A stretch of DNA of 64,000 nucleotides. Source: Burkholderia sp. USMB20. Its GTDB lineage: Bacteria > Pseudomonadota > Gammaproteobacteria > Burkholderiales > Burkholderiaceae. The notes beneath the pieces are model-generated. The model was not told where the DNA came from and ran no database searches. It was given only the letters and a program-made list of their open reading frames with translations. The stretch covers positions 124,001 through 188,000 of the forward strand of contig NZ_JTAN02000017.1 of the NCBI RefSeq assembly GCF_000949135.2. The letters run 5' to 3'. Positions within the stretch are counted from its first letter, which is position 1. The number at the start of each line of letters is the position of its first letter. This document shows positions 46,803-60,530 of this stretch, piece after piece. The position numbers and the translations under genes were made by a program.

Positions 46803-46821
46803 CGGACGCGCCGCTTCATCT

Positions 46822-47382
46822 TCAGCGGCATCGGTCGTGCAGCGTGCAGCCTTGGGGTTCGGTGCCGGCATCGATCACGTAGATCCGGTCGGCGACCTCC
46901 GTGCGGCCGATGAAGCTGGTTTCGACGCCTGCCAACCGCCAGCCGTTATGCTCGTAGAAGCCGATCGCGCGAACGTTGCCGTCGAGTACCGAAAGATGAA
47001 CCTTGTCCTCGCCGATATGGCGGGCCCATGCGCGAACGGCTTCGATCATGCGCTTGCCGGTACCGCTTCCGTGATGCGCGGGATGCACATGAAGGCAATC
47101 GAGCAGGACGCCGCGCGCCGGATCGACCGGCCTTTCGGCGCTGACGAAACCGACCGGAGCCCCGTCGGACTCGGCGATCAGCACGAGGCCCCACTCCGCT
47201 TCGGCGCGGTCGAAATAGTTTCGCCACCGCGTCGCGTGCTCCGTCGGCACCTCATCGGCGAGATAGGCCGCCGGCAGGATATGGCTATAGGCGTTCTGCC
47301 AGCTCAGCGTGTGCAAGCGAGCGATGTGTTCCGCGTCGTGTGGTGTCGCGTTGCGCAGCGTGATGGTGCGGTTTTCCGGCAT
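46822..47382 (-). CDS. GNAT family N-acetyltransferase
   Basis: 186 aa. GNAT fold: ITLRNATPHDAEHIARLHTL at the start, GLVLIAESDGAPVGFVSAER, the acetyl-CoA loop LHVHPAHHGSGTGKRMIEAV (Q/RxxGxG/A variant) and HLSVLDGNVRAIGFYEHNGW. The substrate is unknown; it resembles RimI/PhnO-like single-domain enzymes. Convergent with the preceding gene. Confidence 0.9.
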   Translation of the reverse strand: MPENRTITLRNATPHDAEHIARLHTLSWQNAYSHILPAAYLADEVPTEHATRWRNYFDRAEAEWGLVLIAESDGAPVGFVSAERPVDPARGVLLDCLHVHPAHHGSGTGKRMIEAVRAWARHIGEDKVHLSVLDGNVRAIGFYEHNGWRLAGVETSFIGRTEVADRIYVIDAGTEPQGCTLHDRCR

Positions 47383-47553
47383 GCGAGGGTCGCTCTCGTT
47401 GTGCGATGGAGGCAGGGAAAGTGTAGCAATCGCGACGTTTCAGCGGCGGGTTGCATAGGGAATCGCGGGCGGCAGTGCGCGTCATGCCGTGGTAATCGCG
47501 TAGTTCACCGTGACGCCTGCCGCTTTCTCCAGTTCCTCGACAGCAGCGCCGCC

Positions 47554-47590
47554 AAAAAAAATGTCCCGACGCCTTCCGGGGCGTCGGGAC
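47554..47590 (-). terminator. Very strong intrinsic terminator with no assigned gene
   Basis: GTCCCGACGCC-TTCCGG-GGCGTCGGGAC (47563-47590), an 11-bp stem, followed on the minus strand by ATTTTTTTT. It faces the minus strand, yet no protein gene lies upstream before the tRNA-His fragment. Confidence 0.9.
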
Positions 47591-47914
47591 CGAACGGCCC
47601 TGCAAAGCTAAGGGCACGAGGAATCGATACATTACATGAATGTAAGACTATTAAGCATTGGCGGCTCGTGCCAAGTCATTGGTTTAATCCGCCAATCTGC
47701 GAGACGATGAGCGAAGCCGGTCGCCGCTTCGCTTCGCGGGCTCATGAGCAGCGGCCGCTTGATGGATCGGCCACGCGCGAGTGACGTGACTCGGCGCGCA
47801 GTCTCAATATCGAAACGGCTTTCGTCGGCTGACGCGAAATGGATGAATGGCGAGCAGAACGCTCTGGAAATGGCGCGGCTCGAATCGATGCACTCGCATC
47901 GAATTTTCCGCACA
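47591..47914 (-). other. Unassigned region, candidate minus-strand RNA
   Basis: 324 bp without a coding frame that has Burkholderia codon bias. Nested inverted repeats: GGCACGAG (47613-47620) with CTCGTGCC (47665-47672) enclosing TTACAT-GA-ATGTAA (47632-47645). TTGGCGG (47658-47664) also pairs with CCGCCAA (47689-47695). With the terminator at 47554-47590 this could be a small RNA gene, or a decayed remnant near the island edge. Confidence 0.4.
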
Positions 47915-47948
47915 AAACAAAACAGGCGCCGAAGCGCCTGTTTTGTTT
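47915..47948 (-). terminator. Original tRNA-His terminator, now stranded at the left island end
   Basis: AAACAAAACAGGCGC (47915-47929) pairs over 15 bp with GCGCCTGTTTTGTTT, loop TTCG on the minus strand, 9 bp beyond the tRNA-His 3' fragment. Before insertion it would have followed the complete tRNA gene. Confidence 0.8.
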
Positions 47949-47956
47949 GAGAATTT

Positions 47957-48005
47957 TGGGGTGGCTGATGGGACTCGAACCCACGACAACAGGAATCACA
48001 ATCCT
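47957..48005 (-). repeat. Left attachment repeat: duplicated 3' part of tRNA-His
   Basis: 49 bp identical to 58634-58682, equal to the 3' 49 nt of tRNA-His from within the anticodon stem to the encoded CCA. The sequences diverge immediately inside (CTTAAG here, GGACTC at the tRNA). This is one product of site-specific integration. Confidence 0.95.
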
Positions 48006-48086
48006 CTTAAGACGAGATTCCCTGATGTTGACCTAGATTTACGAGATTCACTGAATCCTAGACTTTTCGGGCTATCCAGCGAAAAT

Positions 48087-48153
48087 TGCCTACATATTCC
48101 TGTTGAACTACGTTGATTGATTGACCTATACTTTGCCTACACGGTGCCTACAT
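48087..48153 (+). promoter_or_regulatory. int promoter and integrase arm-type sites, left end
   Basis: TTGAAC (48103-48108), 18 bp, TATACT (48127-48132) is a good sigma-70 promoter for int. Three copies of TGCCTACA(C/T) lie at 48087-48095, 48134-48142 and 48145-48153; the last two are 11 bp apart and cover the expected start of transcription. The same pair recurs at the right end, which marks them as arm sites. Integrase bound there could also shut off its own gene (inferred). Confidence 0.7.
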
Positions 48154-48179
48154 AGATTTGGCCCCAACAGGAACAGGTA

Positions 48180-49553
48180 ATGGCAAAGGTCAATTTCACT
48201 GCGGAGCGCGTAGCCTCGTTCGAAGCAGTGCCAGGCAAGACGCAGACGATTTACTGGGACGCGAAGGCTCCAGGGCTCGGCCTGCGCGTGACGCCCGCGG
48301 GCGCGCGTTCATACATCTACGAATCCCGCCTGTTCGGCAAGACAGTTCGCATCACCATCGGCGACTCACGTGCATGGACGCTTGGCAAGGCCCGTACTGA
48401 GGCAGCACGCCTGAAAACGGTAATCGATGACGGGAAAGACCCGCGCGAGCAGGTAGCCGAGCAGCGCGCCGCCCATGAGGCCCGAAAGGTGGAGGCTCGC
48501 CGCAAGGACGTAACGTTGGCGGAAGCCTGGAAGGTGTATATCGAGGCTCGCCGCCCGAAGTGGAGCGAGTTGCATTACCGCGACCATGTAACGCTCGCCA
48601 GCGCTGGCGGTCAGCCGAAGAAGCGCGGCAAGGGACTAACCGAACCGGGCCCGCTCGCAGCGCTGATGCCACTGAAGCTATCGGACCTGAGCGCCGAGCG
48701 CATGGGCGAATGGCTGGCGGATGAAGCCACCCAACGTCCAGCTCGTGTCAGGCTGGCCTTCAACCTGCTGCGCATCTTCGCAACGTGGTGCGAGTCGAGG
48801 GCCGAATATCGGGGGCTCATCGACCCGCAGGCCGTTGCCACTCGCCTTTCGAAAGATGCCCTGCCAAAGCAGGCCGCCAAGACCGATTCCATTCAGCGCG
48901 AGCAACTGGCCGCTTGGTTCGGTGCTGTCCGCCAGCTCAGCAACCCAGTCATGGAGGCGTATTTGATTGGCCTGCTGCTGACGGGCGCGCGCCGCGAGGA
49001 ACTGGCCGAATTGCGCTGGGATGACGTGGATTTCCGGTGGCGCAGCCTGCAACTGAAAGACAAAGTGGAAACTGAGACGGGTCGGGTTATCCCCCTGACG
49101 CCATATTTCGCCAGTGTGCTGCTCGAGCTGAAGCGCATCAACGACACGCCGCCGAACGTCCGGCAGATGCGTAGCCTTGAGGCGAAAGGCGAAACGTGGC
49201 AACCGTCAGACTGGGTATTCGCCAGCAAGACTTCAGGTGATGGCCGGCTCGCATCGCCGAATCGCGCGCTGCATCGTGTTTGCGAGATTGCCGGCATCGC
49301 GCCGGTGACTCTGCACGGACTGCGGCGGTCGTTTTCGAGCCTTGCCGAATGGACGGAAGTCCCGTCTGGCATCAAAGCGCAAATCATGGGTCACAAGCCG
49401 TCTGCCATTGCGGAACGTCACTACAACGTGCGCCCACTGGACCTGCTGCGCATGTGGCACGACAAGCTGGAGGCGTGGATCCTCGATGAAGCCGGCGTTG
49501 AATTCACGCCGGAACCGGAGAGGCCGGGACTAAAGGCAATTACCGCGGCCTGA
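48180..49553 (+). CDS. Tyrosine-type site-specific integrase (P4-like)
   Basis: 457 aa. The N-terminal DUF4102 arm-binding domain (about 1-95) reads TIYWDAKAPGLGLRVTPAGA and SYIYESRLFGKTVRITIGDS. A SAM-like core-binding domain follows, then the catalytic domain. Active-site residues: Arg271 (LLLTGARREELAELRW), His379/Arg382 (TLHGLRRSFSSL), His405 (QIMGHKPS) and nucleophile Tyr415 (ERHYNV). All are present, so it should be active. It catalyses integration and excision between tRNA-His and the circular element. The ATG at 48180 has AGGAACAGG upstream. P4-type integrases usually target tRNA 3' ends, as here. Confidence 0.96.
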   Translation: MAKVNFTAERVASFEAVPGKTQTIYWDAKAPGLGLRVTPAGARSYIYESRLFGKTVRITIGDSRAWTLGKARTEAARLKTVIDDGKDPREQVAEQRAAHEARKVEARRKDVTLAEAWKVYIEARRPKWSELHYRDHVTLASAGGQPKKRGKGLTEPGPLAALMPLKLSDLSAERMGEWLADEATQRPARVRLAFNLLRIFATWCESRAEYRGLIDPQAVATRLSKDALPKQAAKTDSIQREQLAAWFGAVRQLSNPVMEAYLIGLLLTGARREELAELRWDDVDFRWRSLQLKDKVETETGRVIPLTPYFASVLLELKRINDTPPNVRQMRSLEAKGETWQPSDWVFASKTSGDGRLASPNRALHRVCEIAGIAPVTLHGLRRSFSSLAEWTEVPSGIKAQIMGHKPSAIAERHYNVRPLDLLRMWHDKLEAWILDEAGVEFTPEPERPGLKAITAA

Positions 49554-49637
49554 CGGTATCAGGCAAAGCGGCGGCGCGGGTGCTGGAACACTTCGCGCCG
49601 CCTGACCATAACACGACCTATCAGGGAGGTCCGTATC

Positions 49638-49907
49638 ATGGCTAAGCTCAATTCTACGTCGCGCCCCGCCGACGTCGCTCAGCTTCCAACCGTTCACCGG
49701 GCGAAGGGCCGGCGGCGTACGCGTCCGATTGCCGGTCAACCCCTCGCTCCGGTTTTACGTCTTGTGGCGAACGAGAACCACCGGAAGCCGCAATGCGAAG
49801 TCAACGCAGGACCTCAAAAGCTTTACGAGGACCTTTGTGCCGTAGCGCAGCACATCATCAAAATCTCGGACATCCTGTGCGAAATAAAACTGCCGGGGCG
49901 GCCGTGA
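49638..49907 (+). CDS. Small hypothetical island protein
   Basis: 89 aa; GGGAGG precedes the ATG. Basic first half (KGRRRTRPIAGQPLAPVLRL), then a short amphipathic helix (YEDLCAVAQHIIKISDILCE). No family recognised. It lies between int and the next hypothetical gene on the same strand. Confidence 0.55.
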   Translation: MAKLNSTSRPADVAQLPTVHRAKGRRRTRPIAGQPLAPVLRLVANENHRKPQCEVNAGPQKLYEDLCAVAQHIIKISDILCEIKLPGRP

Positions 49908-49971
49908 TACGCGGTTGACTATGCTTCTCGCGTGCATTGCGCGCGCCCAGTAACTTGCCAAGGGGCCGACC

Positions 49972-50439
49972 ATGAGGCTCGAACAATACGAAACGCGCGA
50001 CCGTGCATATGGCGCATGGCACCGCGCTCCTTCGATTCGCCGATATTTGCAGGCGACCCAAGCCGAATCGCTGACGATGGTTGACCTCGATTCGGTGCTG
50101 TTCACGGAGTACGACAACGGCGCCAAGATTCCATTGGCATTGGTTGAAGTGGCTCGCGACATCGGGCAGGAGAAACCGGCCGGAGTGATACAGCATCTGG
50201 CGCAGCTTGCCGACGTACCTGCCTATGTCGCGCTATACACACCATCCGACGCGGCAAATCCAGCGAACCCCAACTGGTCGGACATCATGGCTTTCCGCGT
50301 GAAGCGCTTGTGGCCCCGCCCCGAACCAGGCTGGCGCGTCCTCTCCCCGGCGCAATGGGCACGAGCGCTGGTGCAGATCCGCGGGTGGCAGATGCGACGG
50401 TTCGATGTGCAAGCTGCGGCGAACGACGACCGCTATTGA
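49972..50439 (+). CDS. Hypothetical island protein
   Basis: 155 aa; AAGGGG precedes the ATG. Charged N-terminus (LEQYETRDRAYGAWHRAPSI), then VALYTPSDAANPANPNWSDI and FRVKRLWPRPEPGWRVLSPA, giving a compact alpha/beta appearance with many Trp. No known domain. Genes of this kind are frequent in Burkholderia prophage and island replication blocks, but no function can be stated. Confidence 0.6.
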   Translation: MRLEQYETRDRAYGAWHRAPSIRRYLQATQAESLTMVDLDSVLFTEYDNGAKIPLALVEVARDIGQEKPAGVIQHLAQLADVPAYVALYTPSDAANPANPNWSDIMAFRVKRLWPRPEPGWRVLSPAQWARALVQIRGWQMRRFDVQAAANDDRY

Positions 50440-50560
50440 TGGTGCGTTGGCTGTAGCATCGTGGTTTGCTCCTGCCTAGCTCGACGGAGCGAAGAGCCGG
50501 ACACCTTCACCGGCCTGGCAGGGGCTCCCAAATTGAAGGTTCGCACGTGAAGGTGTGCGG

Positions 50561-52462
50561 ATGGCAAAACCGAATTGGCCCCACTGGGCAGACCCGGACA
50601 TGGAGTTCTGGACGCCCGAACAGGCAATCTGCCTGTCGCTGGACATCGACCCGGACCAGCCTGTTCCCGAACATAAGCGCACGCGCTACGCGCAATGGTT
50701 GCGCGAGTTGCAAGGTGCCATCAAGGCAAAGTCCGAACACCTGAGGGTGCGAAATGGGGAAATCAGGCGATTTGAATTTGTGTTTTGGGCGAGCCAGTGC
50801 AAAGAGTGGCCGGACTTGCCGCCTGAACTGCTGAGTATTGCAGAGCTACCCATTCCAGAGATAGGCGAGCCGCGCCAAGGGCCGCATGCTGCGGACCGGG
50901 TTGATACCCGTGACAACCGGTGGCGGAATTTTTCTCTGGAGGATGGTGATGCGCCGGCCATCGACTGTGAGAAATACATTGAAGCGCTCGTCCGCGCGAA
51001 ATACCAGGACGGTCCCGACCTGGCTCCCGAAGAGAACGACGCCATCCGCGAGGCAAGCGCCGAAGTATTGCGCCAGTCCGTCGAAGGGGCGGCGCGTCAG
51101 GGCGTACTGCAACCGCGCGGGCGTGACATGCTGCCTATGCCATCCGGCATCCCAGTGCGCGAGCGGTTCGAGCCATTCAGCAACTTGTACTTTGAGCGTG
51201 AGTCGTTCGTTGCGTTCGCGAATGACGCATGGCTCGTTCGTAAAGCCGAGGACGCCCATGCGGCGGAGGGCGTAGGCCTACCCGCAGAGCGAATCACTGT
51301 TGAAGACCTGGCGTGGATGATTGCAGTACAGCGTGCCGACCAAGGCATCAATCACGCTCACGGCCTTGACGAGCGGGACGGACTGCGCCGCACAATCGAA
51401 ATCGCCTTGCATGTACGGGGATGGCCTCCGGAAGGCATTCCCGGCGTTATCCCGCAGATGGCCGAAATGGCTCGAGCCAAACAAATCGCTTTGCACGGTC
51501 CTATCGAAGCCGAAGCGCCAGAAGTCCATGAGATTTCAGCTTCCCCGGCTGCCTGGTCGCTTTCTGCCGACGACGCACAAAGGGTGCTGGCTTCCTTGTG
51601 TCACTCCGTTCGCCGCTATACGGTCGCGGACGCTGCGGACATTCTTGCCAAGTTGGCTCACCCGAACGATTACATCGCCGAGTACGCGCTGAAGACCTCG
51701 CTGATTGCGCGCATGGAAGACGCCATGCAGAAAGACGAGTTAGTTCCGAACGAGCGGCGAAAAGATGGTGAGATGCTGCTGAACGAGTACAGCATCGATG
51801 AGTGGTTGGCGCGCGAGAGGATACCAATGCGCCTGAGCCCAACCGCGCAGGCAAATCACGAGCAGGCCGAGATGGAAGCCGCGGGCCGGCGCCTGATTGA
51901 TGATGTGGTCGGGATCCTCTCCAAGGAGACACGCACCGAGGCGGCGCGCTGGGAGTCCACGCTCGTGACCGAAATCAGGGGCGGCGCGCTGCCATTGAAG
52001 AACCCTCGCGACCTCGGGGACTTCCTGCCCTATGCGGTTCCGAAGAATCTCCGCACGTTCTATGACCGTGTGAACGTCGCCGACGTCAATAAGCTGCTCG
52101 ACGCGCATCCCGAATGGCGGGTGACTTATCGCTTTCCAGTTGAGGCGCCACCGACATTGCAAGAAGAACTAGATAGCCGATTTAACAGCGCGCGTGCTGT
52201 CAACTCCACGAAACACTCCCTTGGAACGCGCAGCAATCCGCTTAAGGCAGTCATCGATAAGGCAAAGTCCTTGGCGGCAAACCCGAGCGATACCCATTCG
52301 GTTTGGGCGGCGCTCTCGAAATTGGCGCAGGAGAACAACCGGCCGGCTCCGTTGCTGGGCTATGCCGAGGCCGAGGGCGTCAAGTGGGACGATAATGGGA
52401 CCGTCAAATTCTTCACAAAGAAGAACCTCACCGACCGCCTGAGGCGCGCGAACACTCGCTAA
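50561..52462 (+). CDS. Large hypothetical island protein (633 aa)
   Basis: The ATG at 50561 is preferred over a GTG at 50555 because AAGG lies 7 bases upstream. Begins KPNWPHWADPDMEFWTPEQA, then long charged helical regions (KYIEALVRAKYQDGPDLAPE, RIEMALHVRGWPP-like stretches). A winged-helix-like stretch (YSIDEWLARERIPMRL) occurs near 430, and a Lys/Arg-rich end (KFFTKKNLTDRLRRANTR). No P-loop, zinc motif, membrane helix or nuclease motif is visible. It is the largest unassigned protein in the island and sits directly before the AlpA-like gene. It may act in DNA binding or in element-host or element-helper interaction, but that is only inferred from size and position. Confidence 0.75.
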   Translation: MAKPNWPHWADPDMEFWTPEQAICLSLDIDPDQPVPEHKRTRYAQWLRELQGAIKAKSEHLRVRNGEIRRFEFVFWASQCKEWPDLPPELLSIAELPIPEIGEPRQGPHAADRVDTRDNRWRNFSLEDGDAPAIDCEKYIEALVRAKYQDGPDLAPEENDAIREASAEVLRQSVEGAARQGVLQPRGRDMLPMPSGIPVRERFEPFSNLYFERESFVAFANDAWLVRKAEDAHAAEGVGLPAERITVEDLAWMIAVQRADQGINHAHGLDERDGLRRTIEIALHVRGWPPEGIPGVIPQMAEMARAKQIALHGPIEAEAPEVHEISASPAAWSLSADDAQRVLASLCHSVRRYTVADAADILAKLAHPNDYIAEYALKTSLIARMEDAMQKDELVPNERRKDGEMLLNEYSIDEWLARERIPMRLSPTAQANHEQAEMEAAGRRLIDDVVGILSKETRTEAARWESTLVTEIRGGALPLKNPRDLGDFLPYAVPKNLRTFYDRVNVADVNKLLDAHPEWRVTYRFPVEAPPTLQEELDSRFNSARAVNSTKHSLGTRSNPLKAVIDKAKSLAANPSDTHSVWAALSKLAQENNRPAPLLGYAEAEGVKWDDNGTVKFFTKKNLTDRLRRANTR

Positions 52463-52463
52463 T

Positions 52464-52493
52464 GCGCGCCAAGGCGCGCTAAGGCGCGCGCCT
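52464..52493. repeat. GC-palindromes after the 633-aa gene
   Basis: GCGCGCC-AA-GGCGCGC (52464-52479), immediately past the stop, and the perfect palindrome AGGCGCGCGCCT (52482-52493). No T-run. A terminator, an mRNA-end structure or an operator upstream of the AlpA-like gene are all possible. Confidence 0.45.
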
Positions 52494-52568
52494 ATCGGAT
52501 AACGCAAAGACACGCCAAAAAATCCGTATCACCTCAATTCAACGCCACCCGGCGGGAAGGTGATACAC

Positions 52569-52781
52569 ATGACCACGCAGCAAGTTACGGCGGCGCCAGC
52601 GGCCCGCCAATTCATCACGACCGAAGAACTCGCGTCGGCGCTGTCTCTGCGCCCGCAGAGCATCCGCAAGCGCTATATGGAGACCGGCTCCTATCACGGC
52701 GTGAGACCTGTCAAACTGCCGAATCGCTTTCTCGCGTGGCCGGTGGATGCGGTCGAGCGGCTGATGCGCGCGGAGGCGTAA
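52569..52781 (+). CDS. AlpA/excisionase-like helix-turn-helix protein
   Basis: 70 aa from the ATG at 52569 (AAGGTG upstream). It has the compact MerR-like wing-less HTH pattern of AlpA proteins: FITTEELASALSLRPQSIRK, RYMETGSYHGVRPVKLPNRF, LAWPVDAVERLM. AlpA of P4-type elements activates integrase-dependent excision and acts as a directionality/regulatory factor. It is the first gene of a tight cluster: its stop abuts the next start and that gene overlaps the helicase gene. Confidence 0.75.
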   Translation: MTTQQVTAAPAARQFITTEELASALSLRPQSIRKRYMETGSYHGVRPVKLPNRFLAWPVDAVERLMRAEA

Positions 52782-53228
52782 ATGGAAAAGAAAAACGCCC
52801 AATCCAGCAAAGCCGAATCGAGCGCGAACGAACATCGCAATTCTAACGGAGCCCTGCCTACACGCGTCAATACCGTCACAGCGTCGTTTCTGGCTGAACT
52901 GCTGGAAGGCAATGCACTGACAGGTATGGAGGCCGTGTTTCGCCAATCGACAACGAGAGCCGCCGCATGGGTACATTACCTTGAAGGCAAATACGGTTGG
53001 ACCATCGAACGCCGTGAAATTGCAGACGGCACGAACGACGGCCGCATCTCGTGGGTAACGCGCTACTGGCTCAGTGACGAATCCCGTGAGGCCGCGTTTG
53101 CCGCTGGCGCACGTGGATGGATTGACCGGGTGCAAGCCGCCGTCAGCAAGCGACGTGCGAATGCCGACGAGGTGAAAGCCCTGGCCGCTCGCATCAATGC
53201 ACGGCGTGACATGCGAGGTGCCGCATGA
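52782..53228 (+). CDS. Hypothetical DNA-binding-like protein
   Basis: 148 aa; GGAGG within the preceding stop region drives its start. Middle region resembles a winged helix used in prophage proteins: NAVTASFLAEL-like start, NALTGMEAVFRQSTTRAAAW, VHYLEGKYGWTIERREIADG, RISWVTRYWLSDESREAAFA. The C-terminus is Ala/Arg-rich and helical. It overlaps the primase-helicase gene by 4 bp, implying coupled expression and a likely role in replication or its control. No exact family named. Confidence 0.65.
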   Translation: MEKKNAQSSKAESSANEHRNSNGALPTRVNTVTASFLAELLEGNALTGMEAVFRQSTTRAAAWVHYLEGKYGWTIERREIADGTNDGRISWVTRYWLSDESREAAFAAGARGWIDRVQAAVSKRRANADEVKALAARINARRDMRGAA

Positions 53229-55204
53229 TGAATGGTCACGACGCCGCGCGCGCACGTGACGCCCTGTTCTCGCTCGATGCCGGGTGCCCGCGCAGTGAGT
53301 GGGTGAGCGCCGGCATGGCAGCGAAGGCAGCCGGCCTGTCCGAGGCTGATTTCCTCGAGTGGTCAGCGACCGGCGCCAATTTCGCTGGCGAACGTGACGC
53401 AAAGTCCGCCTGGAAGAGCTTTAAGCAGGATGGCGGTATTGGTCCGGCAACGCTGTTCAGAATGGCGATGGATGCCGGCTGGCGTGATATGCACCCGCGC
53501 AACGTCACGCCGGCGGCGCGCGTACCGGTCGCGAAGCCGACGAACGTCGACACGCCCCGGAAGCCGCGCACCGACCTGGCCGCGACGTTCGACAGCTATC
53601 CGGCCGCAAGCGCCGACCATCCCTACATCGTTGCGAAACGCGGCACGCCGGACGGCCTACGCGTGGTACCGAAAGACGACACGCTCACCATAGGCGGCCA
53701 ACGCGTCGCCGGCTGGCTGGCGGTGCCGGTTCGCTCGTTCGACGGCATGCTCTGCACGGTCCAATTCGTTCCGCCGCCGGGTGCCGGGAAGAAGCTCAAC
53801 GCACCAGGCGCGTCGTTCAACGATGGCTTGTTCATGGTCGGCGACATTACACCGGATGGAACGCTATACGTATGTGAGGGCATCGGCCAAGCATGGGCTT
53901 GCGCCAAGGCCGACTACCACGCCGCCGCGATGGTTACGTTCGGCTCTGGCCGCACTCGCCCCATCGCGAAGGTGCTGCACAAGCGGTTTCCGGCGGCGCG
54001 CATCGTCATCGTGCCGGACCGCGGCAAAGAGGCGGACGCCGAAGCCATCGCACGCGAACTTACCGGCGCGTGGGTCGAAATGCCCTCCGACAAGCCGGCG
54101 AACTATGACGCGAACGACTACGAGGCCGAGCACGGCATCGACGCACTGGCGGATCTTCTCCGCGCCGCCAAGACACCGCCGATGCGGTATCGGCTCCAAT
54201 CGGCCGACGACTTGCTCACCGCGCCGCCGCTTCGCTGGCTGGTTCAGGGCGTATTGCCCGCCTCTGGGTTCGCTGCCGTCTATGGCCCGTCGGGTTCCGG
54301 GAAATCATTTCTGGTGCTCGACCTCTGCGCGGCTGTCGCGGCGGGCGCTGATTGGTTCGGGCGGCGCTCGAGCGCAGTTCCCGTTACCTACGTATGTCTC
54401 GAAGGCGAAGCCGGCCTTGGCAAGCGGGCGAAGGCATGGAGCATCCGCAAGCAACTCAATCTGCCGGGGCGCCTCCGGTTCGTCACTCAGCCGCTCGACC
54501 TGCGGCAGTCCGAAGACGTTGCCGACCTGTGCGCGGCGGTACTGTCGGCGGGTGGCCGCGACGGGCTGCTCGTCATCGACACGCTGAACCGTGCAGCGCC
54601 AGGCACTGACGAGAACTCCAGCGTCGACATGGGTCATCTCATTGAGGCGTGCAAGGAAGCGCAGCGCCGGCTCGGCGGCGTGGTGCTGCTCGTCCATCAC
54701 ACCGGCAAGGATGGCACGAAGGGGCTCCGCGGTCATAGCAGCCTGTATGCCGCGCTCGACGCCGCCATCGAGGTTTCACGCAATGACGGGCGCCGGGAAT
54801 GGAGCGTTGCCAAGAGCAAGGACGACGCCGACGGTGGGCGCAATGCGTTCGCTCTGCGCGTGGTGGAACTGGGCGACGACGAGCACGGCGAACCGGTTAC
54901 CTCGTGCGTTGTCGAGCCCGACGAGAGCACCAAGGAGGTAGCGCGCGTGAAGCTTCCGCAAGGTGGCAACCAGCGCATCGCATTAGACGCCCTCGCCGAA
55001 CCTCTGCGCCAGTCCCAGGACTTCGGTAAAGGCGACGCGCCACCGACGCACCCTTGCATCGAAATCGAGGCGGCTGTCCGGTTGGTGGCGTCAAGCCTGA
55101 CCTGCGAGCCACGAAAGCGAAACGAGCGTGCCAGGGCGGCCGTGACCGGCCTTGTAGCGAACGGAATCTATGGCTCCAAGGACGGCTGGCTATGGCGCAA
55201 GTAA
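53225..55204 (+). CDS. Primase-helicase: PriCT-2, Toprim-like and RepA-type ATPase domains
   Basis: 659 aa. N-terminal PriCT-2 domain at about 5-80 (FSLDAGCPRSEWVSAGMAAK, FRMAMDAGW). A Toprim-like module follows with its Glu at residue 218 (LYVCEGIGQAWACAKADYHA) and RIVIVPDRGKEADAEAIARE. Then comes a RepA/DnaB-like hexameric ATPase with Walker A GPSGSGKS (354-361), Walker B LLVIDTLN (Asp452) and sensor-like VLLVHHTGKDGTKGLRGHSS. The set is that of self-replicating satellites and small elements: priming plus unwinding in one chain. It should start replication of the excised circle, probably at the adjacent repeats before ssb. The polymerase must come from the host. Confidence 0.9.
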   Translation: MMNGHDAARARDALFSLDAGCPRSEWVSAGMAAKAAGLSEADFLEWSATGANFAGERDAKSAWKSFKQDGGIGPATLFRMAMDAGWRDMHPRNVTPAARVPVAKPTNVDTPRKPRTDLAATFDSYPAASADHPYIVAKRGTPDGLRVVPKDDTLTIGGQRVAGWLAVPVRSFDGMLCTVQFVPPPGAGKKLNAPGASFNDGLFMVGDITPDGTLYVCEGIGQAWACAKADYHAAAMVTFGSGRTRPIAKVLHKRFPAARIVIVPDRGKEADAEAIARELTGAWVEMPSDKPANYDANDYEAEHGIDALADLLRAAKTPPMRYRLQSADDLLTAPPLRWLVQGVLPASGFAAVYGPSGSGKSFLVLDLCAAVAAGADWFGRRSSAVPVTYVCLEGEAGLGKRAKAWSIRKQLNLPGRLRFVTQPLDLRQSEDVADLCAAVLSAGGRDGLLVIDTLNRAAPGTDENSSVDMGHLIEACKEAQRRLGGVVLLVHHTGKDGTKGLRGHSSLYAALDAAIEVSRNDGRREWSVAKSKDDADGGRNAFALRVVELGDDEHGEPVTSCVVEPDESTKEVARVKLPQGGNQRIALDALAEPLRQSQDFGKGDAPPTHPCIEIEAAVRLVASSLTCEPRKRNERARAAVTGLVANGIYGSKDGWLWRK

Positions 55205-55231
55205 CCCACCTTCCCGCCCATCCCGGAGTCC

Positions 55232-55312
55232 GTCCCGTTCCCGCCCGTATCTATATATACGGAGCGGGAGAAAACGGGACCCAGAAACTCCCGAAACGGG
55301 ACAAAACGGGAC
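55232..55312. repeat. Iteron-like cluster, candidate replication origin
   Basis: AAACGGGAC occurs at 55272-55280, 55294-55302 and 55304-55312, with starts 22 and 10 bp apart (near helical multiples). An inverted copy, GTCCCGTT, lies at 55232-55239. Between the inverted and direct copies is an AT-rich core, GTATCTATATATAC (about 55247-55260). Iterons of opposite orientation around an AT-rich core, beside the helicase gene, match the layout of satellite and plasmid origins. An alternative is an operator for ssb, which starts 91 bp later. Confidence 0.55.
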
Positions 55313-55402
55313 ATTTCGGGAATCAAAACCGCGAAGGATCCGCACTAGCGCGGACGTGTATCGATAACTTGGGCGACGATAGCTGCCTACTGGAGGTGAA
55401 AG

Positions 55403-55831
55403 ATGATTGACGGTCTGGTAAGTGGGAAGCTGTACGGGACGGCGGCAAGCCGGACGGGTCAAAGCGGCACGCAGTTTGTGACCGCCAAGGTGCGCGCTGC
55501 CGTGGGCGACGGCGAAGCGCTGTTCGTGAACGTGATTGCGTTCGCGGACGACGCGCAATCTGCCCTACTCGCGCTCAATGACGGCGATTCCGTGGCACTG
55601 GCCGGTTCCCTGACGCCGAAGGTATGGACCGACAAGCACGGTAACGCAAAGCCGGCGCTCGACATGGTGGCGCACGCGGTGCTGACCGCCTATCACGTGA
55701 AGCGCAAGCGCGCCGCCGTGCAGGGCGACGGTAACGGAACCGAGCGTACCGGCCGCCGACCGGCGAACGGCGCCGACCAGGCGAAGCAGATGTATGGCAA
55801 CGGGCCTGACGACATGCAGGATGACCTGTAA
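55403..55831 (+). CDS. Single-stranded DNA-binding protein (island copy)
   Basis: 142 aa; strong GGAGGTGA before the ATG. OB-fold SSB pattern: IDGLVSGKLYGTAASRTGQS, QFVTAKVRAAVGDGEALFVN, VNVIAFADDAQSALLALNDG and DSVALAGSLTPKVWTDKHGN. A basic/polar linker leads to a very acidic end (GPDDMQDDL) like the protein-interaction tip of SSBs, though not the exact DDDIPF. It should coat single strands during element replication. Confidence 0.88.
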   Translation: MIDGLVSGKLYGTAASRTGQSGTQFVTAKVRAAVGDGEALFVNVIAFADDAQSALLALNDGDSVALAGSLTPKVWTDKHGNAKPALDMVAHAVLTAYHVKRKRAAVQGDGNGTERTGRRPANGADQAKQMYGNGPDDMQDDL

Positions 55832-55907
55832 CACCGCCTCTAAAGTAGAGAGAAATAGTGAAAACCCGAGCGCTTTTCGCGCTTACACGATAGTAAGGAG
55901 AACTCTG

Positions 55908-56369
55908 ATGACGCTCCCCGCATCGCCCCCGATGTCCATGTCGCAAATCGCAACCGAACTTGGCCGCACCTTGCCGCTCTCGCTGCTCGATTCAGGGGTG
56001 CTCGCGCTGGCCGGTAAGAGCGGCGCACCGGTCAGCTTCAGCGATTTGTTCGGCAAGACCGGACGCTTCGATGGAGCCTTGACGGGTCAAGGCAGCGGAT
56101 CTCTCGTCTTCGTGAATTTCCCGGCATCGACACCGTTTTTTGACATTGCTCTGGTTTCGCTGGTACAGGACGCAACGCCGCACACGGTTCTGACGACTTC
56201 GGCTGCATCGGCATATTGGTCCGGGAACATAATGGCCATCAACAACACGACGGGCGTCAGCGTTGTCATGCCCAAATTCAGCGCAACGCAATGGGTAGCA
56301 TCATCGGCACCCGCGAACCTGATACGAAGCGGCCATACCGACAGCTTCACGATATTGCCCTCCGCCTAA
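55908..56369 (+). CDS. Orphan phage tail-like protein
   Basis: 153 aa; AAGGAG 7 bases before the ATG. The N-terminal 50 residues, MSMSQIATELGRTLPLSLLD with LALAGKSGAPVSFSDLFGKT, follow the pattern at the start of several phage tail and virion proteins (an LAGxxSGxISxxDLxGK block). The rest is beta-rich, Ser/Thr-rich (TGQGSGSLVFVNFPASTPFF, LTTSAASAYWSGNIMAINNT). No other virion gene is nearby. It may be a remnant, or a satellite-encoded tail accessory that changes helper-phage particles; the latter is speculative. Confidence 0.6.
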   Translation: MTLPASPPMSMSQIATELGRTLPLSLLDSGVLALAGKSGAPVSFSDLFGKTGRFDGALTGQGSGSLVFVNFPASTPFFDIALVSLVQDATPHTVLTTSAASAYWSGNIMAINNTTGVSVVMPKFSATQWVASSAPANLIRSGHTDSFTILPSA

Positions 56370-56412
56370 TAGGGCGGGAAGATGGCCCGATTGCCTTGAC
56401 TGAGAACAGACC

Positions 56413-56489
56413 AAAAACAGGCGGCGCGCTGTCTGCTTCAACAGCCGAAAAACAGGCGGCGCGTTTAGCTGGTAACAGCCAAAAAACAG
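56413..56489. repeat. Short direct repeats, zone 1
   Basis: AAAAACAGGCGGCGCG at 56413-56428 and 56448-56463. AACAGCC(G/A)AAAAACAG at 56440-56455 and 56474-56489, starts 34 bp apart. The two repeat types interlock over 77 bp in otherwise non-coding DNA. Possible protein-binding array or second origin element. Confidence 0.55.
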
Positions 56490-56599
56490 CCAAACAGCGA
56501 ATGCTTTGAAATCAATCAAAGGAAATCAAACGCCAGACAGAGTCAGCCTGCAAAATGCTTGCAGAATCATCTGGTTGGCACGACGGGACGGAATCATTC

Positions 56600-56700
56600 T
56601 CGGACCAATACGTGCGCGCGCGAGGGGCATGCATTTCTTGAGTCCATAAAAAGGCCTCGAGTATTCGGACCAATACGCGCGTGCGCGCGCGAGGCGCATG
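56600..56700. repeat. Long direct repeats with alternating purine-pyrimidine tracts, zone 2
   Basis: TCGGACCAATACG followed by a (GC/GT)n tract and GAGG(G/C)GCATG occurs at 56600-56631 and again at 56665-56700, 65 bp apart. A shorter relative, ATACGCGCGCGTGCGCGTGAG, lies near 56833. Alternating purine-pyrimidine tracts can form Z-DNA. Function unknown; it lies at the junction between the replication block and the cargo genes. Confidence 0.55.
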
Positions 56701-56760
56701 GACGGCCACGGTAAGTTATCGGTAAAAAACCGGTCGATACCGTGGCAGCGCCAAAAGGAA

Positions 56761-56919
56761 ATGGCTGAAATTGGCGCCGAACTTACGGCCCGCTACGGGA
56801 AGCTACCCGCTGCTACCCGAATTCGCGAAGCGATACGCGCGCGTGCGCGTGAGACCCAGGCTTGTGTTTTCTTGCAGAACCCGCAGATTCCAGCATCTGA
56901 TTTTCTAGTTTTTTCCTAG
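56761..56919 (+). CDS. Possible small protein
   Basis: 52 aa from the ATG at 56761, with AAAAGGAA directly upstream; an in-frame ATG at 56698 would add 21 residues running through the repeat. Sequence AEIGAELTARYGKLPAATRI with REAIRARARETQACVFLQNP looks helical and basic. No family recognised and third-position bias is weak, so it may not be real. Confidence 0.3.
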   Translation: MAEIGAELTARYGKLPAATRIREAIRARARETQACVFLQNPQIPASDFLVFS

Positions 56920-56964
56920 TATGAATTACTGCCGCTCTGGCAGTTAATTAAAAATGGGGACGCT

Positions 56965-57699
56965 ATGAAAATCAGAACCGCGATTGGGGTGGCCGTGACT
57001 ACCTTTTTGGCAGCGTGCGGCGGTGGCGATGGCGGAGGAAGTGGCAGCACGTCCGCGCCGGTCCAGAATCAGGACTCGCAGGGCTTCTGGCAGGGAACCA
57101 CAAGCAACGGCCGGAACGTCTCCGCTCTCGTGCTCGAAACGGGGCAATATTTCGCAGTGTATTCGACCAACGGCGTTGTGGACGGGATGTTCGAAGGCAC
57201 CTTCTCGACAAGCGGCAACACAATCACCGATAAGTCATCGTTGGACTTTGCGATTGGCGTTGGTGTAATTCCCGCCTCCATTACCGGCTCCGTCACTACG
57301 AAGCAGTCCATCAACGGCACGGTCAGCGAATCGAACAACTCGGTGACGTTCAGCGGCAACTACAACACGGCGTATGACACGCCCGCCACGCTCTCACAGG
57401 CCGTCGGCACCTGGTCAGGACACTCCAGTGGCACAACCGTCGCCACGAGCTTGACCGTCACGTCGTCCGGCTCTTTCACGGGGACCAGTGGAACCTGCAC
57501 GTTCAGCGGCTCGGTCGCGCCGCGCGCCACCGGGAAGGCCGTGTTCGATGGCACCGTCACGTTCAATGACGCTTCGTGTCAGCTAGGCGCGGGCACGTCG
57601 CTTGGATTTGAGGCCGTGGTCTCCGGTACGCAGCTAATCGCGGCAGGTGTCAATTCGTCGAGAACGAATGGCTTCATTTTCATCGGCGCCAAAAGTTGA
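56965..57699 (+). CDS. Island-encoded surface lipoprotein
   Basis: 244 aa. Signal KIRTAIGVAVTTFLAACGGG with lipobox LAAC, Cys at residue 18, then a Gly/Ser linker (GGGDGGGSGSTSAPVQ). The mature part is a low-Lys, Ser/Thr/Gly-rich beta repeat protein: SNGRNVSALVLETGQYFAVY, TFSTSGNTITDKSSLDFAIG, TKQSINGTVSESNNSVTFSG, VTSSGSFTGTSGTCTFSGSV. This is typical of exported beta-barrel-like or jelly-roll lipoproteins common in Burkholderia and its phages. A role in host surface change (for example phage exclusion) is conceivable but unproven. Its codon bias is less extreme than that of flanking chromosomal genes. Confidence 0.8.
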   Translation: MKIRTAIGVAVTTFLAACGGGDGGGSGSTSAPVQNQDSQGFWQGTTSNGRNVSALVLETGQYFAVYSTNGVVDGMFEGTFSTSGNTITDKSSLDFAIGVGVIPASITGSVTTKQSINGTVSESNNSVTFSGNYNTAYDTPATLSQAVGTWSGHSSGTTVATSLTVTSSGSFTGTSGTCTFSGSVAPRATGKAVFDGTVTFNDASCQLGAGTSLGFEAVVSGTQLIAAGVNSSRTNGFIFIGAKS

Positions 57700-57837
57700 C
57701 CGATGGAGCGGTGGGCTTTCGGGTCCACCTCTCTGCCGCGAGCGCGCCTCGCGTGCAAGTGAATCCGCGTCTTGCTGACGATGGAGAGAATGAGGCCGGT
57801 GCGCGCCAGATGAATGCCGCACGCTGGGGCGTATCGG

Positions 57838-58290
57838 TCAGCCCTGCTTCTTGTTGCGGAACCCGCGGCGAACCCATCCGACCGCGAGGAAGAGCGCGCC
57901 GACTGTTCCGCTCACCCAGCCAACTATCGAAACCGACGCCCCAAAGGCGGCACGCTTTGCCGTTGCTACCGCATCGGCGCGCTGTTGAGCCTGTTTCTGA
58001 GCAAACTGCTCCCGAGGCCCATCGGTGCCCGCGCAGAGTCCTGCAAACGGGTCAACCTGATTCGCGCCTGCTGGTTGCTGCGCGAGGTATTCGTCAAACG
58101 GTGAACTGTCTGCCGGTGCGGCCTTTGGAGCGACTGATTCACGCCGGCAATTGTCGTAGAGGTTGAGCGCGTTCTCGTAATCGGTATTGGCGCGCTGCTC
58201 AGCGTAGCGGACGTTGTCCACGTACACCCAGCCAGCCAACGCGCCCGCTGCCACCGTCAAGACCACCCAAATACGAGTCCAGCCGCCCAT
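57838..58290 (-). CDS. Small two-helix membrane protein, opposite strand
   Basis: 150 aa. TM1 near the N-terminus (WVVLTVAAGALAGWVYVDNV), a polar domain with paired cysteines (LYDNCRRESVAPK and FAGLCAGTDG), and TM2 near the end (ASVSIVGWVSGTVGALFLAV) before a basic tail RRGFRNKKQG. The loop would be periplasmic, with a possible disulfide. It is the only leftward gene in the island and converges on the lipoprotein. No family recognised. Confidence 0.7.
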   Translation of the reverse strand: MGGWTRIWVVLTVAAGALAGWVYVDNVRYAEQRANTDYENALNLYDNCRRESVAPKAAPADSSPFDEYLAQQPAGANQVDPFAGLCAGTDGPREQFAQKQAQQRADAVATAKRAAFGASVSIVGWVSGTVGALFLAVGWVRRGFRNKKQG

Positions 58291-58556
58291 GTTGGCCCCT
58301 TCGCGTCATTCGTGTTTTACGGGGATGGTAGCGGATGGCGAGCGGGTTGCGTCGATAGCATGGGCGAACTCTCCGACGTTAGAGAAGAGTCATGCGGGCA
58401 CGCGAAACTGTCCGACGTTGCCGACCTTGAATTGATGGCTGGAAATGTGAAAGAGCCGCATATTGCTCCACAACGTCGACTGCTCATGGGTGCACGCGCA
58501 ACGACAGGGATGGGAGAGCCAGGCCGAGGGGGGCGCTCATCCGAATTGACCGGAAA
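58291..58556. other. Non-coding right end of the island
   Basis: No gene. It contains the promoter side of the small membrane-protein gene and two copies of TCCGACGTT (near 58372 and 58410). The frame that reads through here into the tRNA is an artefact. Confidence 0.5.
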
Positions 58557-58576
58557 TGCCTACATGGTGCCTACAC
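58557..58576 (+). promoter_or_regulatory. Integrase arm-type sites, right end
   Basis: TGCCTACAT-GG-TGCCTACAC, two copies 11 bp apart, the same motif, spacing and orientation as at 48134-48153 near the left end. They lie 58 bp inside the right attachment repeat. Confidence 0.7.
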
Positions 58577-58590
58577 GGACGCCAGAAAGC

Positions 58591-58617
58591 AAAAAGCCCA
58601 GTCGCAATGACTGGGCT
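58591..58617 (-). terminator. Island-borne terminator for tRNA-His
   Basis: AGCCCAGTC (58595-58603) pairs with GACTGGGCT (58609-58617), followed on the minus strand by CTTTTTG. It starts 17 bp after the tRNA 3' end and is island DNA, replacing the original terminator now at 47915-47948. Confidence 0.85.
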
Positions 58618-58633
58618 AAGTGCTTGAATTTGT

Positions 58634-58682
58634 TGGGGTGGCTGATGGGACTCGAACCCACGACAACAGGAATCACAATCCT
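58634..58682 (-). repeat. Right attachment repeat within tRNA-His
   Basis: 49 bp identical to 47957-48005. This copy is part of the complete tRNA gene, so insertion left the tRNA functional. Confidence 0.95.
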
Positions 58683-58710
58683 GGACTCTACCAACTGAGC
58701 TACAGCCACC
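58634..58710 (-). tRNA. tRNA-His (GTG anticodon)
   Basis: 77 nt including the extra 5' G typical of tRNA-His and an encoded CCA. The anticodon loop TTGTGAT gives GTG, closed by CAGGA/TCCTG. The T-arm GTGGG-TTCGAGT-CCCAT and acceptor GGTGGCT/AGCCACC pair correctly. The 5' 28 nt are chromosomal and the 3' 49 nt belong to the duplicated attachment core. Confidence 0.97.
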
Positions 58711-58726
58711 ACTGATACTGCTTTGT

Positions 58727-58796
58727 TTCTTCGCTGTTTCGTTTCGTGTTCAGCAGCGAAGAACAAGATTATACGAAGACTTTTCCGTCTTGCAAA
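58727..58796 (-). promoter_or_regulatory. tRNA-His promoter and leader hairpin
   Basis: On the minus strand, TTTGCA (58796-58791), 17 bp, TATAAT (58773-58768) forms a good promoter that overlaps the last codons of dusA. The leader that follows contains TTCTTCGCTG/CAGCGAAGAA (58727-58736 with 58754-58763), a 10-bp hairpin before the tRNA. Confidence 0.7.
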
Positions 58797-59803
58797 GCAT
58801 TTTTTTCAAAAATTTCTTCGGCGTCGTTCAGATGCGTGCGCGCCTCGTCGAACACGGCCAGATCGCCGCGCGCGAGCTTCTTGTTGTCGGACAGCACACG
58901 ACGCCAGCCGCGCGCACCCGCGACGCCACGATAGAGCCCGAGAGCATGCCGCACGATCGCGCCGAGATACGTGCCGCGCTTCAGTTCCGCCGCGCAGTAT
59001 TCGATCAGTTTCGCCTCGGCCTCTTCGCGCGTCGGCACCGCCGCAGTCGAGCCGTAGAAGCGCGCATCGACACCCGCGAGCACATACGGGTTGTGATAAG
59101 CCTCGCGGCCGAGCATCACGCCGTCCACGTGCTCGAGATGCTGCGCGACTTCGTCGAGCGTCTTGATCCCGCCGTTGATCACGATCTCCAGCGACGGGAA
59201 ATCGCGCTTCAGTTGATACGCATAGTCGTACTTGAGCGGCGGGATCTCGCGGTTCTCCTTCGGCGACAGCCCCTTCAGGATCGCATTGCGCGCGTGCACC
59301 ACGAACGTTTCGCAGCCGGCCTCCGCCACCGTGCCGACGAAGTCCCGCACGAACGCATAATCCTCGACCGCGTCGACACCGATCCGGTGCTTGACCGTGA
59401 CCGGCACCGACACCGCATCGCGCATCGCCTTCACGCAGTCGGCAACGAGTTGCGGCTCGTTCATCAGGCACGCGCCGAACGCACCGCGCTGCACGCGCTC
59501 GGACGGACAGCCGCAATTCAGGTTGATCTCGTCGTAGCCCCACTGCTCGCCGAGTTTCGCGGCGCGCGCGAGATCGTCCCGTTCGCTGCCGCCCAGTTGC
59601 AGCGCGACCGGCGATTCGTTCGGCGTGAACGCGAGATGCCGCTGGGCGTCGCCGAACAGCAGCGCGCCCGTCGTGATCATTTCCGTATACAGCCACGTGT
59701 CGCGCGTCAGCGTGCGATGGAACGACCGGCAATGACGGTCGGTCCAGTCGAGCATGGGCGCCACGGAAACGCGGCGGGGAGGAAGCGAGGACGGTACGGA
59801 CAT
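58769..59803 (-). CDS. dusA: tRNA-dihydrouridine synthase A
   Basis: 344 aa from the ATG at 59803; an ATG-less extension to 59836 is possible. FMN-binding TIM barrel with the DusA-specific start PRRVSVAPMLDWTDRHCRSF and the active-site segment INLNCGCPSERVQRGAFGAC, where the catalytic Cys follows the NCGCPS motif. Also VTVKHRIGVDAVEDYAFVRD and HARNAILKGLSPKENREIPP. It reduces uridines 20/20a in tRNA D-loops with NADPH. It lies directly before tRNA-His. dusA is itself a known island target, but here the adjacent tRNA is used instead. Confidence 0.96.
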   Translation of the reverse strand: MSVPSSLPPRRVSVAPMLDWTDRHCRSFHRTLTRDTWLYTEMITTGALLFGDAQRHLAFTPNESPVALQLGGSERDDLARAAKLGEQWGYDEINLNCGCPSERVQRGAFGACLMNEPQLVADCVKAMRDAVSVPVTVKHRIGVDAVEDYAFVRDFVGTVAEAGCETFVVHARNAILKGLSPKENREIPPLKYDYAYQLKRDFPSLEIVINGGIKTLDEVAQHLEHVDGVMLGREAYHNPYVLAGVDARFYGSTAAVPTREEAEAKLIEYCAAELKRGTYLGAIVRHALGLYRGVAGARGWRRVLSDNKKLARGDLAVFDEARTHLNDAEEIFEKNALQDGKVFV

Positions 59804-59881
59804 GGAATTCGGGGCAGCAAGCGGCGCGGGAAACAACCCGACATTTTACCGCAACGCGACCAGGCCGGCCCGGCAGCCTGC

Positions 59882-60136
59882 CTAGACCGGCCCGCCGTCG
59901 CCCAGTTCGGCGTCGACGGCCCGCCGCGCCTCGTCAAGTACGCGCTCGATCACGCGCCGTTCGGTCAGCAGCATCCCGTCGACTTTCACGAGCCGCCAGT
60001 CGATCCGCACGGCCGAGCCCTGCAGCACGCGGTAGTGCGCATGCTCGCCGTCCCACACCTGCTCGGTCTTCACCTCGATCTCGTAGCCGCGGTACGGCTC
60101 GCTGAAATCGCCGAGATCGCTGCCTCTCGGTTCCAT
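59882..60136 (-). CDS. Small conserved hypothetical protein
   Basis: 84 aa from the ATG at 60136. DLGDFSEPYRGYEIEVKTEQ, VWDGEHAHYRVLQGSAVRID and a helical end (VIERVLDEARRAVDAELG) suggest a small alpha/beta fold. Function unknown. Same strand as the next small gene and dusA. Confidence 0.6.
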   Translation of the reverse strand: MEPRGSDLGDFSEPYRGYEIEVKTEQVWDGEHAHYRVLQGSAVRIDWRLVKVDGMLLTERRVIERVLDEARRAVDAELGDGGPV

Positions 60137-60191
60137 CGCTCGCTCCGTGGCGACACGGCGCCAGGCCGCCGCGGCGGCCGGCGCCGTGCGC

Positions 60192-60389: not shown

Positions 60390-60530
60390 GCGTTGGCCTC
60401 CGGCGTCGGTGTCGTTCCATCCTAGCACTTCGTCCTGACGCCGAATACCGAGGCAAACGCTCGACCATGAAACAAGGGCGCCGCGAACGGCCAGACGGCC
60501 CGCCCGCGGCGCCCTGCACCGGAAACGCGC

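Follow-up and report, generated by a model that had tools for sequence, protein, structure and literature searches.

What kind of mobile element occupies the tRNA-His gene of Burkholderia sp. USMB20, and by what means might its early genes be held shut? The question is raised by a 64,000-nucleotide stretch of contig NZ_JTAN02000017.1, here called the window, in which 49-bp direct repeats at tRNA-His enclose a unit of 10,677 bp. An earlier note on this DNA proposed a phage satellite or a minimal mobilisable element. Its list of genes and attachment (att) sites holds, but it overlooked two non-coding parts, an int-alpA RNA and an iteron region. On balance, the unit is best explained as an intact integrative element of the phage-satellite type, with the logic of phage-inducible chromosomal islands (PICIs) and an early operon under a probable RNA lock. 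Comparison of sequences establishes, for the int-alpA RNA, a conserved structure and position, a double complementarity and the co-variation of that complementarity.

The int-alpA RNA and its two targets

The structured RNA lies between the integrase gene (int) and the gene for an AlpA-like regulator (alpA), with two complementary stretches at its downstream end.

50469..50539, + strand: int-alpA RNA, full-length Rfam match to RF02996 at 69 bits, a three-way junction
50533..50540, + strand: target 1 (T1), in and just behind the RNA tail, a 7-nt complement of the loop ACACCUUCA
50548..50556, + strand: target 2 (T2), UGAAGGUGU, a 9-nt complement of the loop that contains the Shine-Dalgarno sequence

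The gathering threshold of RF02996 is 35.8 bits, and besides tRNA this is the only match in the window that reaches gathering. Neither C4 nor isrK is among the nine Rfam matches listed over the island at E values up to 1. The fold consists of a closing helix and two hairpins, with the apical loop ACACCUUCA at 50501-50509; five of the 17 pairs predicted on six sequences have changes on both sides. T2 sits in a hairpin of its own (stem 50542-50546 / 50555-50559), and the ATG of the next gene follows at 50561.

The RNA family was reportedly first described by Weinberg and others in 2017. No function for it was found in the open-licence literature searched, which yielded only a table entry and a mention in PMC12370729. 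A covariance model built from six RNAs, R1, gives 37 matches in 36 of 85 sources, the six builders included, and detects the RNA in 13 of 23 delimited islands of the integrase family described below. RF02996 is found in 24 of 65 genomes of the genus and in 83 of 398 of the family. A phylum-wide draw of 398 genomes gave 52 with the RNA, and control genomes gave 0/14 in each of three surveys. Several genomes (G001, G021, G053, G281, G492 and others) carry two to six int-alpA RNAs each.

At 20 RNA loci of the genus, integrase and primase domains are the most frequent among the large open reading frames (ORFs) scanned (86 of 97; the 11 left out are from L276, L278 and L279), with Phage_integrase matched by 16 of the 86. 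Among the best 25 of 81 families there, the only ones of virion type are head-tail connector (1) and baseplate hub (2). The layout is different at several RNA loci in the series L266-L285, where a tRNA-Arg gene lies about 8-10 kb off with an adjoining gene of about 404 aa, probably an integrase; several also have a primase-size gene of about 950 aa close to the RNA.

Co-variation of the loop with its targets

Pairing was scored as the longest Watson-Crick run between a loop and its own targets, and the null was obtained by permuting loops among members. This alignment-free permutation replaced per-pair counts: the tail register is off by one base in several rows of the model alignment. In the first set, of 37 RNAs, T1 scores 193 against 154.7 under the null (standard deviation 6.0) and T2 204 against 173.0 (5.6), and none of 5000 permutations does as well for either. 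A genus set of 21 RNAs, taken from 22 of 25 loci (three were already in the first set and one had no R1 match), gives 120 against 102.0 for T1 (0/5000) and 109 against 97.9 for T2 (3/5000). A third set comprises 54 RNAs from 60 regions, six being without an R1 match, and here T1 scores 288 against 225.4 and T2 266 against 234.5 (0/1000 each). The three sets overlap; pooled and deduplicated they comprise 104 RNAs, with 561 against 438.1 for T1 (standard deviation 9.9) and 533 against 462.7 for T2 (8.7), each 0/5000.

The permutation ignores the phylogenetic tree, and two further tests guard against this. With one RNA per distinct loop (n = 52), T1 scores 272 against 201.8 and T2 265 against 219.2; a set of 22 RNAs from beyond the family, which leaves out a 23rd at a contig end, gives 129 against 92.7 and 122 against 94.4. 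All four results are 0/5000, and the controls of the outside-family set are null. Windows further downstream are null in the 104-RNA pool and reach a z of 1.5 at most in the first set; the hairpin-1 loop gives no pairing signal in the 37-RNA set.

A Watson-Crick run of at least 5 is present at T1 in 82 of the 104 RNAs, at T2 in 76 and at both in 61; if G-U pairs are allowed, the counts are 101 for T1 and 96 for T2. L351, L363 and the second match of L083 fit poorly. Other loops come with targets to match: AGUCCCCCGAU with AUCGGGGG (L064), UUACUCCCG with CGGGAG (L078), AUUCUUUCA with UGAAAG (L094) and AAUCCUUUCA with UGAAAGGAU (L369). The T2 match falls within a hairpin loop in 93 of 104 RNAs, as against a mean of 35.7 and a maximum of 44 in base shuffles, where a hairpin was defined by at least 4 pairs, G-U allowed, with the match inside the loop give or take one base. 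A start codon and an open frame stand behind T2 in all 37 RNAs of the first set (shuffles: mean 7.3, maximum 16).

Limits of the island

The att repeats at tRNA-His are exact and 10,677 bp apart, as the earlier note held, and the following features mark the two ends.

47957..48005, no strand: attL, a 49-bp copy of the tRNA-His 3′ end, found by repeat search
58634..58709, − strand: tRNA-His, whose 3′ end (58634-58682) is attR
58595..58617, − strand: hairpin with a U run near the right end of the island, identical in sequence in L022 and L033

Identity of the att pair is exact over 50 nt, the extra base being on the left side, and the repeats sit inside a 62-nt pair of 92% identity. They are the sole exact direct repeat of at least 24 nt within 46001-60500 of the window. 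When the flanks are joined over one att copy, five of 30 same-genus tRNA-His loci (L210, L215, L225, L229 and L234) match them continuously for about 290 of 323 nt; the island is therefore an insert. In four further tRNA-His loci the alignment starts only some 45 nt to the left of the junction, and these are not counted as empty sites because the att region of phage BgManors32 aligns likewise. Promoter and terminator scans gave matches no more frequent than in shuffles.

Genes and probable origin

The genes of the island, all but one on the + strand, are as follows.

48180..49553, + strand: tyrosine integrase, 457 aa, with Arm-DNA-bind_3 and Phage_integrase (Pfam)
49638..49907, + strand: small ORF, 89 aa, no assigned function, 53% to its L023 counterpart
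49972..50439, + strand: conserved 155-aa protein, no assigned function, 95% to L022, 87% to L023 and 80% to L026
50561..52462, + strand: dynamic-zone gene, first early gene, 633 aa
52569..52781, + strand: AlpA-like helix-turn-helix (HTH) protein, 70 aa, named by its place and by HTH_17 in family members
52782..53228, + strand: winged-HTH protein, 148 aa, HTH_39 (Pfam)
53225..55204, + strand: primase-helicase, 659 aa, PriCT_2 and AAA_25, with Toprim_3 below cut-off
55205..55402, no strand: probable origin, AACGGGAC at 55273, 55295 and 55305 and its inverse at 55232, around TATCTATATATA (55248)
55403..55831, + strand: single-stranded DNA-binding protein (SSB), 142 aa (Pfam, PHROGs)
55905..56369, + strand: late-zone gene, 154 aa, like tail-fibre-zone proteins of prophages and of phage JC1
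56698..56919, + strand: small ORF, 73 aa, without a PHROGs match, which may not be a gene
56965..57699, + strand: lipoprotein, 244 aa, cargo, lipobox LAAC by eye
57838..58290, − strand: membrane protein (by eye), 150 aa, 50% to one in L022

Most of what the earlier note had named among these genes is borne out. The integrase looks active as judged from its Pfam domains and from residues R271, H379, R382, H405 and Y415, which are invariant across four aligned sequences, that of the window included, and which we take to be the catalytic residues. Primase-helicase and SSB are both supported by Pfam, and the helicase part of the former resembles 1g8y, presumably RSF1010 RepA. The AlpA-like regulator is borne out in part: the protein of the window itself matches no Pfam family and a PDB profile search with its family found no match, but HTH_17 is matched by 6 of 14 aligned family members. 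Its likely role is that of an excisionase or an activator. The early operon, on one strand, consists of the dynamic gene, the AlpA-like and winged HTH genes, the primase-helicase gene, the iteron region and the SSB gene.

The tail-like gene is 32% to JC1_58, which is flanked by tail-fibre genes in phage JC1, and has further relatives in a viral contig (48%) and in genomes G036 (55%) and G043 (52%). The lipoprotein has weak relatives only, in 8 of 65 genomes. Ahead of its gene, at 56405-56497 and 56600-56700, are repeats of 21-24 nt in three and two copies. The Pfam and PHROGs scans each covered 10 of the 12 island proteins, and in these neither named a capsid, portal, terminase or relaxase, in keeping with the earlier statement that no transfer or virion genes are recognisable.

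The 633-aa product of the first early gene has no Pfam domain, and the scan of genome contigs found no relative of the gene. Its C-terminal part is common to genes of L035, L096 and, in part, L038, and the N-terminal part of the L035 gene matches L033 at 77% over 154 aa. As judged from these alignments, domains are exchanged among these genes.

Four of the six copies of AACGGGAC/GTCCCGTT in the 64-kb window fall in the 198 bp between primase and SSB, with three copies one way and one opposite around TATCTATATATA. The count of the 6-mer core in this stretch is reached by none of 5000 base shuffles of it. A similar iteron layout is present in L022 and L033. This region behind the primase-helicase gene is probably the origin of replication, one side of which has a single exact copy.

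A family of related islands

An integrase alignment, A2, found 87 relatives, of which the best 80, from named genomes, were used; judged by record title they are mostly Betaproteobacteria. At 18 of the 80 loci an exact repeat of 42-73 bp is present about 200-290 bp before int and at the 3′ end of a downstream tRNA gene. To these were added the island of the window, L035 (att of 49 bp, with one mismatch to the window in each copy), L086 and L091 (delimited by 20- and 22-bp repeats at a tRNA) and L022 from a viral collection, which was counted although its left end lies beyond the sequence examined. The resulting 23 islands span 3.7-11.4 kb and nearly all are bounded by repeats at tRNA genes. 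The family uses tRNA-His, -Arg, -Lys, -Met, -Cys, -Thr and -Phe sites. At 59 of the 80 loci no repeat was found within the sequence examined, and virion genes at these loci are uncounted.

BLAST clusters across the 23 islands place the integrase in 23, the AlpA-like HTH protein in 14, the primase-helicase in 12, two winged-HTH types in 7 and 5 and the SSB in 3. These counts are underestimates, owing to the clustering and to codon-based gene calls: genes of the relatives were called by a codon-usage script, which misses genes of odd composition, the late gene and lipoprotein gene of the window among them. The profile-family lists for pooled proteins comprise the best 25 of 46, 86 and 81 families. 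The usual order is int, a variable gene, alpA, winged HTH, primase-helicase, SSB or late genes, and tRNA. L022 and L023 have the core genes of the island, L023 being the same locus as L033 (Burkholderia ambifaria), and the RNA, the iterons and the right-end hairpin are conserved between the window island, L022 and L033.

The last called gene before the tRNA encodes a terminase small subunit (TerS) in L038 (Terminase_4, 5.5e-19) and, by a weak match, in L096 (phrog_309, 5.3e-5), and the two belong to different families; L087 encodes a major head protein. L087, from Nitrosomonas ureae, is a 9-kb tRNA-Phe island of the same integrase family and possibly a capsid-encoding satellite. Large opposite-strand genes (672, 392 and 466 aa) are seen in L036, L089 and other islands, and toxin-antitoxin or defence-like Pfam matches (BrnT/BrnA, HigB, AbiEii-type AAA) occur among the 120 island proteins.

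A site shared with prophages

L022 has the island and a prophage of about 44.4 kb in tandem: one att copy (10397-10445) closes the island, and the prophage beyond it runs to another att copy, within a complete tRNA-His gene (L032 17990-18065). Over the matching gene block, 18% of the first 6.7 kb of this prophage can be aligned with Burkholderia phage Magia (71% identity); phages Magia and BgManors32 both contain the att core. All of the 65 genus genomes have the tRNA-His flank. At least 18 of them have a further copy of the att stretch on the same contig, 3.1-10.6 kb away in at least 7 and 42-60 kb away in at least 11, counts that were made by hand, with the intervening element read only for G004. 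The site thus seems to be shared by small islands and prophage-sized inserts.

Together with the iterons, the TerS and head-protein genes of relatives, the tail-fibre-zone gene and the tandem Magia-like prophage lend partial support to the satellite proposed earlier. The late gene was probably captured from a phage, as described for PICIs in PMC10111431.

Proposed mechanism and competing explanations

In the integrated state, the loop would cover the ribosome-binding site of the first early gene, either in cis or as a processed antisense RNA, with T1 serving as a decoy or a second site. The early operon would be kept shut by blocked translation and perhaps also by early termination, like that caused by P4 CI RNA. 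A helper phage would lift the lock; AlpA and integrase would then excise the 10.7-kb circle, which the primase-helicase would replicate with SSB from the iterons. Packaging by the helper might employ a borrowed terminase subunit in some relatives and another route here. It is tentatively suggested, at somewhat less than even confidence, that int-alpA RNAs form a third widespread class of phage or satellite latch RNA. On this view the loop would switch partners, pairing at one time with the tail as a decoy and at another forming a kissing contact with the hairpin that holds the Shine-Dalgarno sequence of the first early gene. Release at this step, by a helper phage or, for prophages, by induction, would switch on the AlpA-primase operon.

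Several observations weigh against this scheme. For the RNA of the window by itself, the predicted fold is not better than that of shuffles (z −1.3; 22 of 200 shuffles do as well), and by R1 ten of the 23 islands are without the RNA. Genome G036 has an int-alpA RNA and the late-zone gene in a prophage with head and tail genes, so that the RNA is no marker of satellites. Terminase, cos and capsid gene were not found in the island of the window. When five islands were compared with the tandem prophage and with parts of the phages Magia and BgManors32, no single DNA match beat shuffles: the best E value is 0.015, and that for shuffles 0.0001-0.05. Megablast of the whole island against phage records returned the att stretch only, and blastn of the late zone (55832-58633) nothing below E 0.07. 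Weak matches are more numerous, 384 as against 223-257 in 3-mer shuffles, 234-307 in order-1 random sequence and 250 in reversed sequence, a surplus that may come from shared coding composition. Finally, RNAs that share a genome show no reduced complementarity to one another (22 pairs in 16 genomes): the mean cross-match is 4.49 against 4.14 expected, with 1981 of 2000 permutations at or below, and five pairs share a 6-nt core where 2.5 are expected. Loop-based immunity in trans would need co-resident RNAs to avoid cross-matching; since they do not, control in cis, or immunity through other parts of the RNA, has to be entertained.

One alternative concerns the RNA itself, which might act solely in cis: it would be a translation switch or an attenuator responding to something else, such as ribosomes, a protein or a helper RNA, and not an immunity RNA. 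The targets lie directly downstream on the same strand, and loops have not diversified within genomes; the chances of this explanation are appreciable, if below even. The C4 RNA of P1, which lies upstream of its target operon and pairs near its start, nevertheless acts in trans. The same is true of P4 CI, an antisense RNA of similar layout (PMC4825925). Control in cis may still be the main mode of the RNA lock.

For the island as a whole, a mobilisable element would be transferred by conjugation, another element's relaxase acting on an oriT of the island, and its primase-helicase would serve replication. A Mob_Pre-type cluster does occur in 3 of 23 sibling islands (L046, L072 and L079), and Mob_Pre matched 3 of 120 island proteins scanned, with L046 and L072 confirmed singly; the RepA-like helicase part also fits. 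All three of these islands are without the primase cluster, however, the ten window proteins scanned include no relaxase, though no search for oriT was made, and the TerS and tail-fibre-zone genes of the family indicate a phage. The mobilisable half of the earlier proposal thus gains precedent among siblings but no such gene was found in the island of the window, for which it is rather unlikely.

That the island is an immobile prophage remnant without late genes is improbable. The G036 RNA does lie among phage genes: the run encodes a terminase large subunit, a portal or adaptor protein and a major head protein, and about 22 kb downstream of the RNA the late-zone gene has a tail-fibre gene before it and an endolysin gene after it. 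The L024 RNA lies near ORFs that resemble tail genes by eye. Against decay, related islands of similar order, bounded by matching att repeats, occur in different hosts and at different tRNA genes, and the RNA, iterons and right-end hairpin are conserved in the window island, L022 and L033. The earlier note had asked whether the block is always part of a larger prophage; it is not, since 23 small islands could be delimited, but a related RNA module is also present in the G036 prophage. A chromosomal island spread solely by generalised transduction or recombination would agree with the failure to find a packaging signal, but it is very improbable given the integrase, the replication module and the exact att repeats.

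Comparison with known systems

Gram-negative PICIs of the EcCICFT073 type (PMC6092414, PMC10111431) resemble the island in size and in having int, an AlpA-like regulator and primase on one strand. Both have iterons beside an AT tract behind pri, a late zone and a dynamic gene that shares and exchanges domains. Of terS or other helper late genes, which are optional in PICIs, the island may have a counterpart in its tail-fibre-zone gene, and TerS occurs only in the relatives L038 and, by a weaker match, L096. The single direction of int, alpA and pri holds in the island, with AlpA assigned by place and one cargo gene opposite. The earlier note did not recognise the gene order. It does resemble the published order of PICI zones, namely integration, dynamic, replication and late (PMC10111431), except that the dynamic gene stands between int and alpA. 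The first early gene resembles Bro-network genes of the PICI dynamic zone (PMC10111431), although the protein of the window is without a Pfam domain.

There are differences as well. PICIs are characterised by an attC site never used by temperate prophages (PMC6092414), whereas the tRNA-His site also serves temperate prophages, including the Magia-like one in tandem in L022; the attC feature of PICIs is therefore absent. The island has an int-alpA RNA where PICIs are reported to have C4/isrK-type RNAs, its helicase is RepA-like and no helper is known. The island is not filed as a PICI because the attC feature fails and packaging is unproven. Of features that mark other classes, the capsid, portal and terminase genes of capsid-forming PICIs (cfPICIs) or tailed prophages are absent from the proteins scanned, as is the relaxase of integrative mobilisable elements, oriT lying outside the search.

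P4-like satellites (PMC8628076) share int, AlpA, the primase-helicase and the logic of an immunity RNA; Psu, delta, epsilon and alpha have no Pfam match among the island proteins scanned, and Sid was outside the scan. The P4 CI RNA is antisense, and by pairing with seqA and seqC it brings early transcription to a halt (PMC4825925, PMC10111431). In P4, seqA lies upstream and seqC downstream of CI (PMC4825925), whereas both RNA targets are downstream in the island. What the int-alpA RNA has in common with C4/CI-type immunity RNAs is a loop whose complementary targets lie where the early operon begins. PICMI (PMC10803314) shares the minimal early set of int, alpA and prim without capsid genes; the island differs in its tRNA site, which is not a fis site, in the presence of the SSB, the RNA and the dynamic gene, and in a primase of other Pfam families.

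The RNA of the island is a member of RF02996 in the usual place between int and alpA, and the structure line of that family shows neither the loop-tail nor the loop-Shine-Dalgarno pairing. This pairing offers a concrete mechanism for a family to which the literature searched assigns no function, and an early operon with a sequence-defined lock can be tested directly with a reporter gene. The lock is likely to be an off-switch common to many related elements. In the open-licence literature searched, no Burkholderia satellite of this kind was found; the islands add a family, mostly from Betaproteobacteria, to the PICI-like elements described there. The island is of the PICI-like satellite kind, and it is the proposed RNA lock that specialists would find new.

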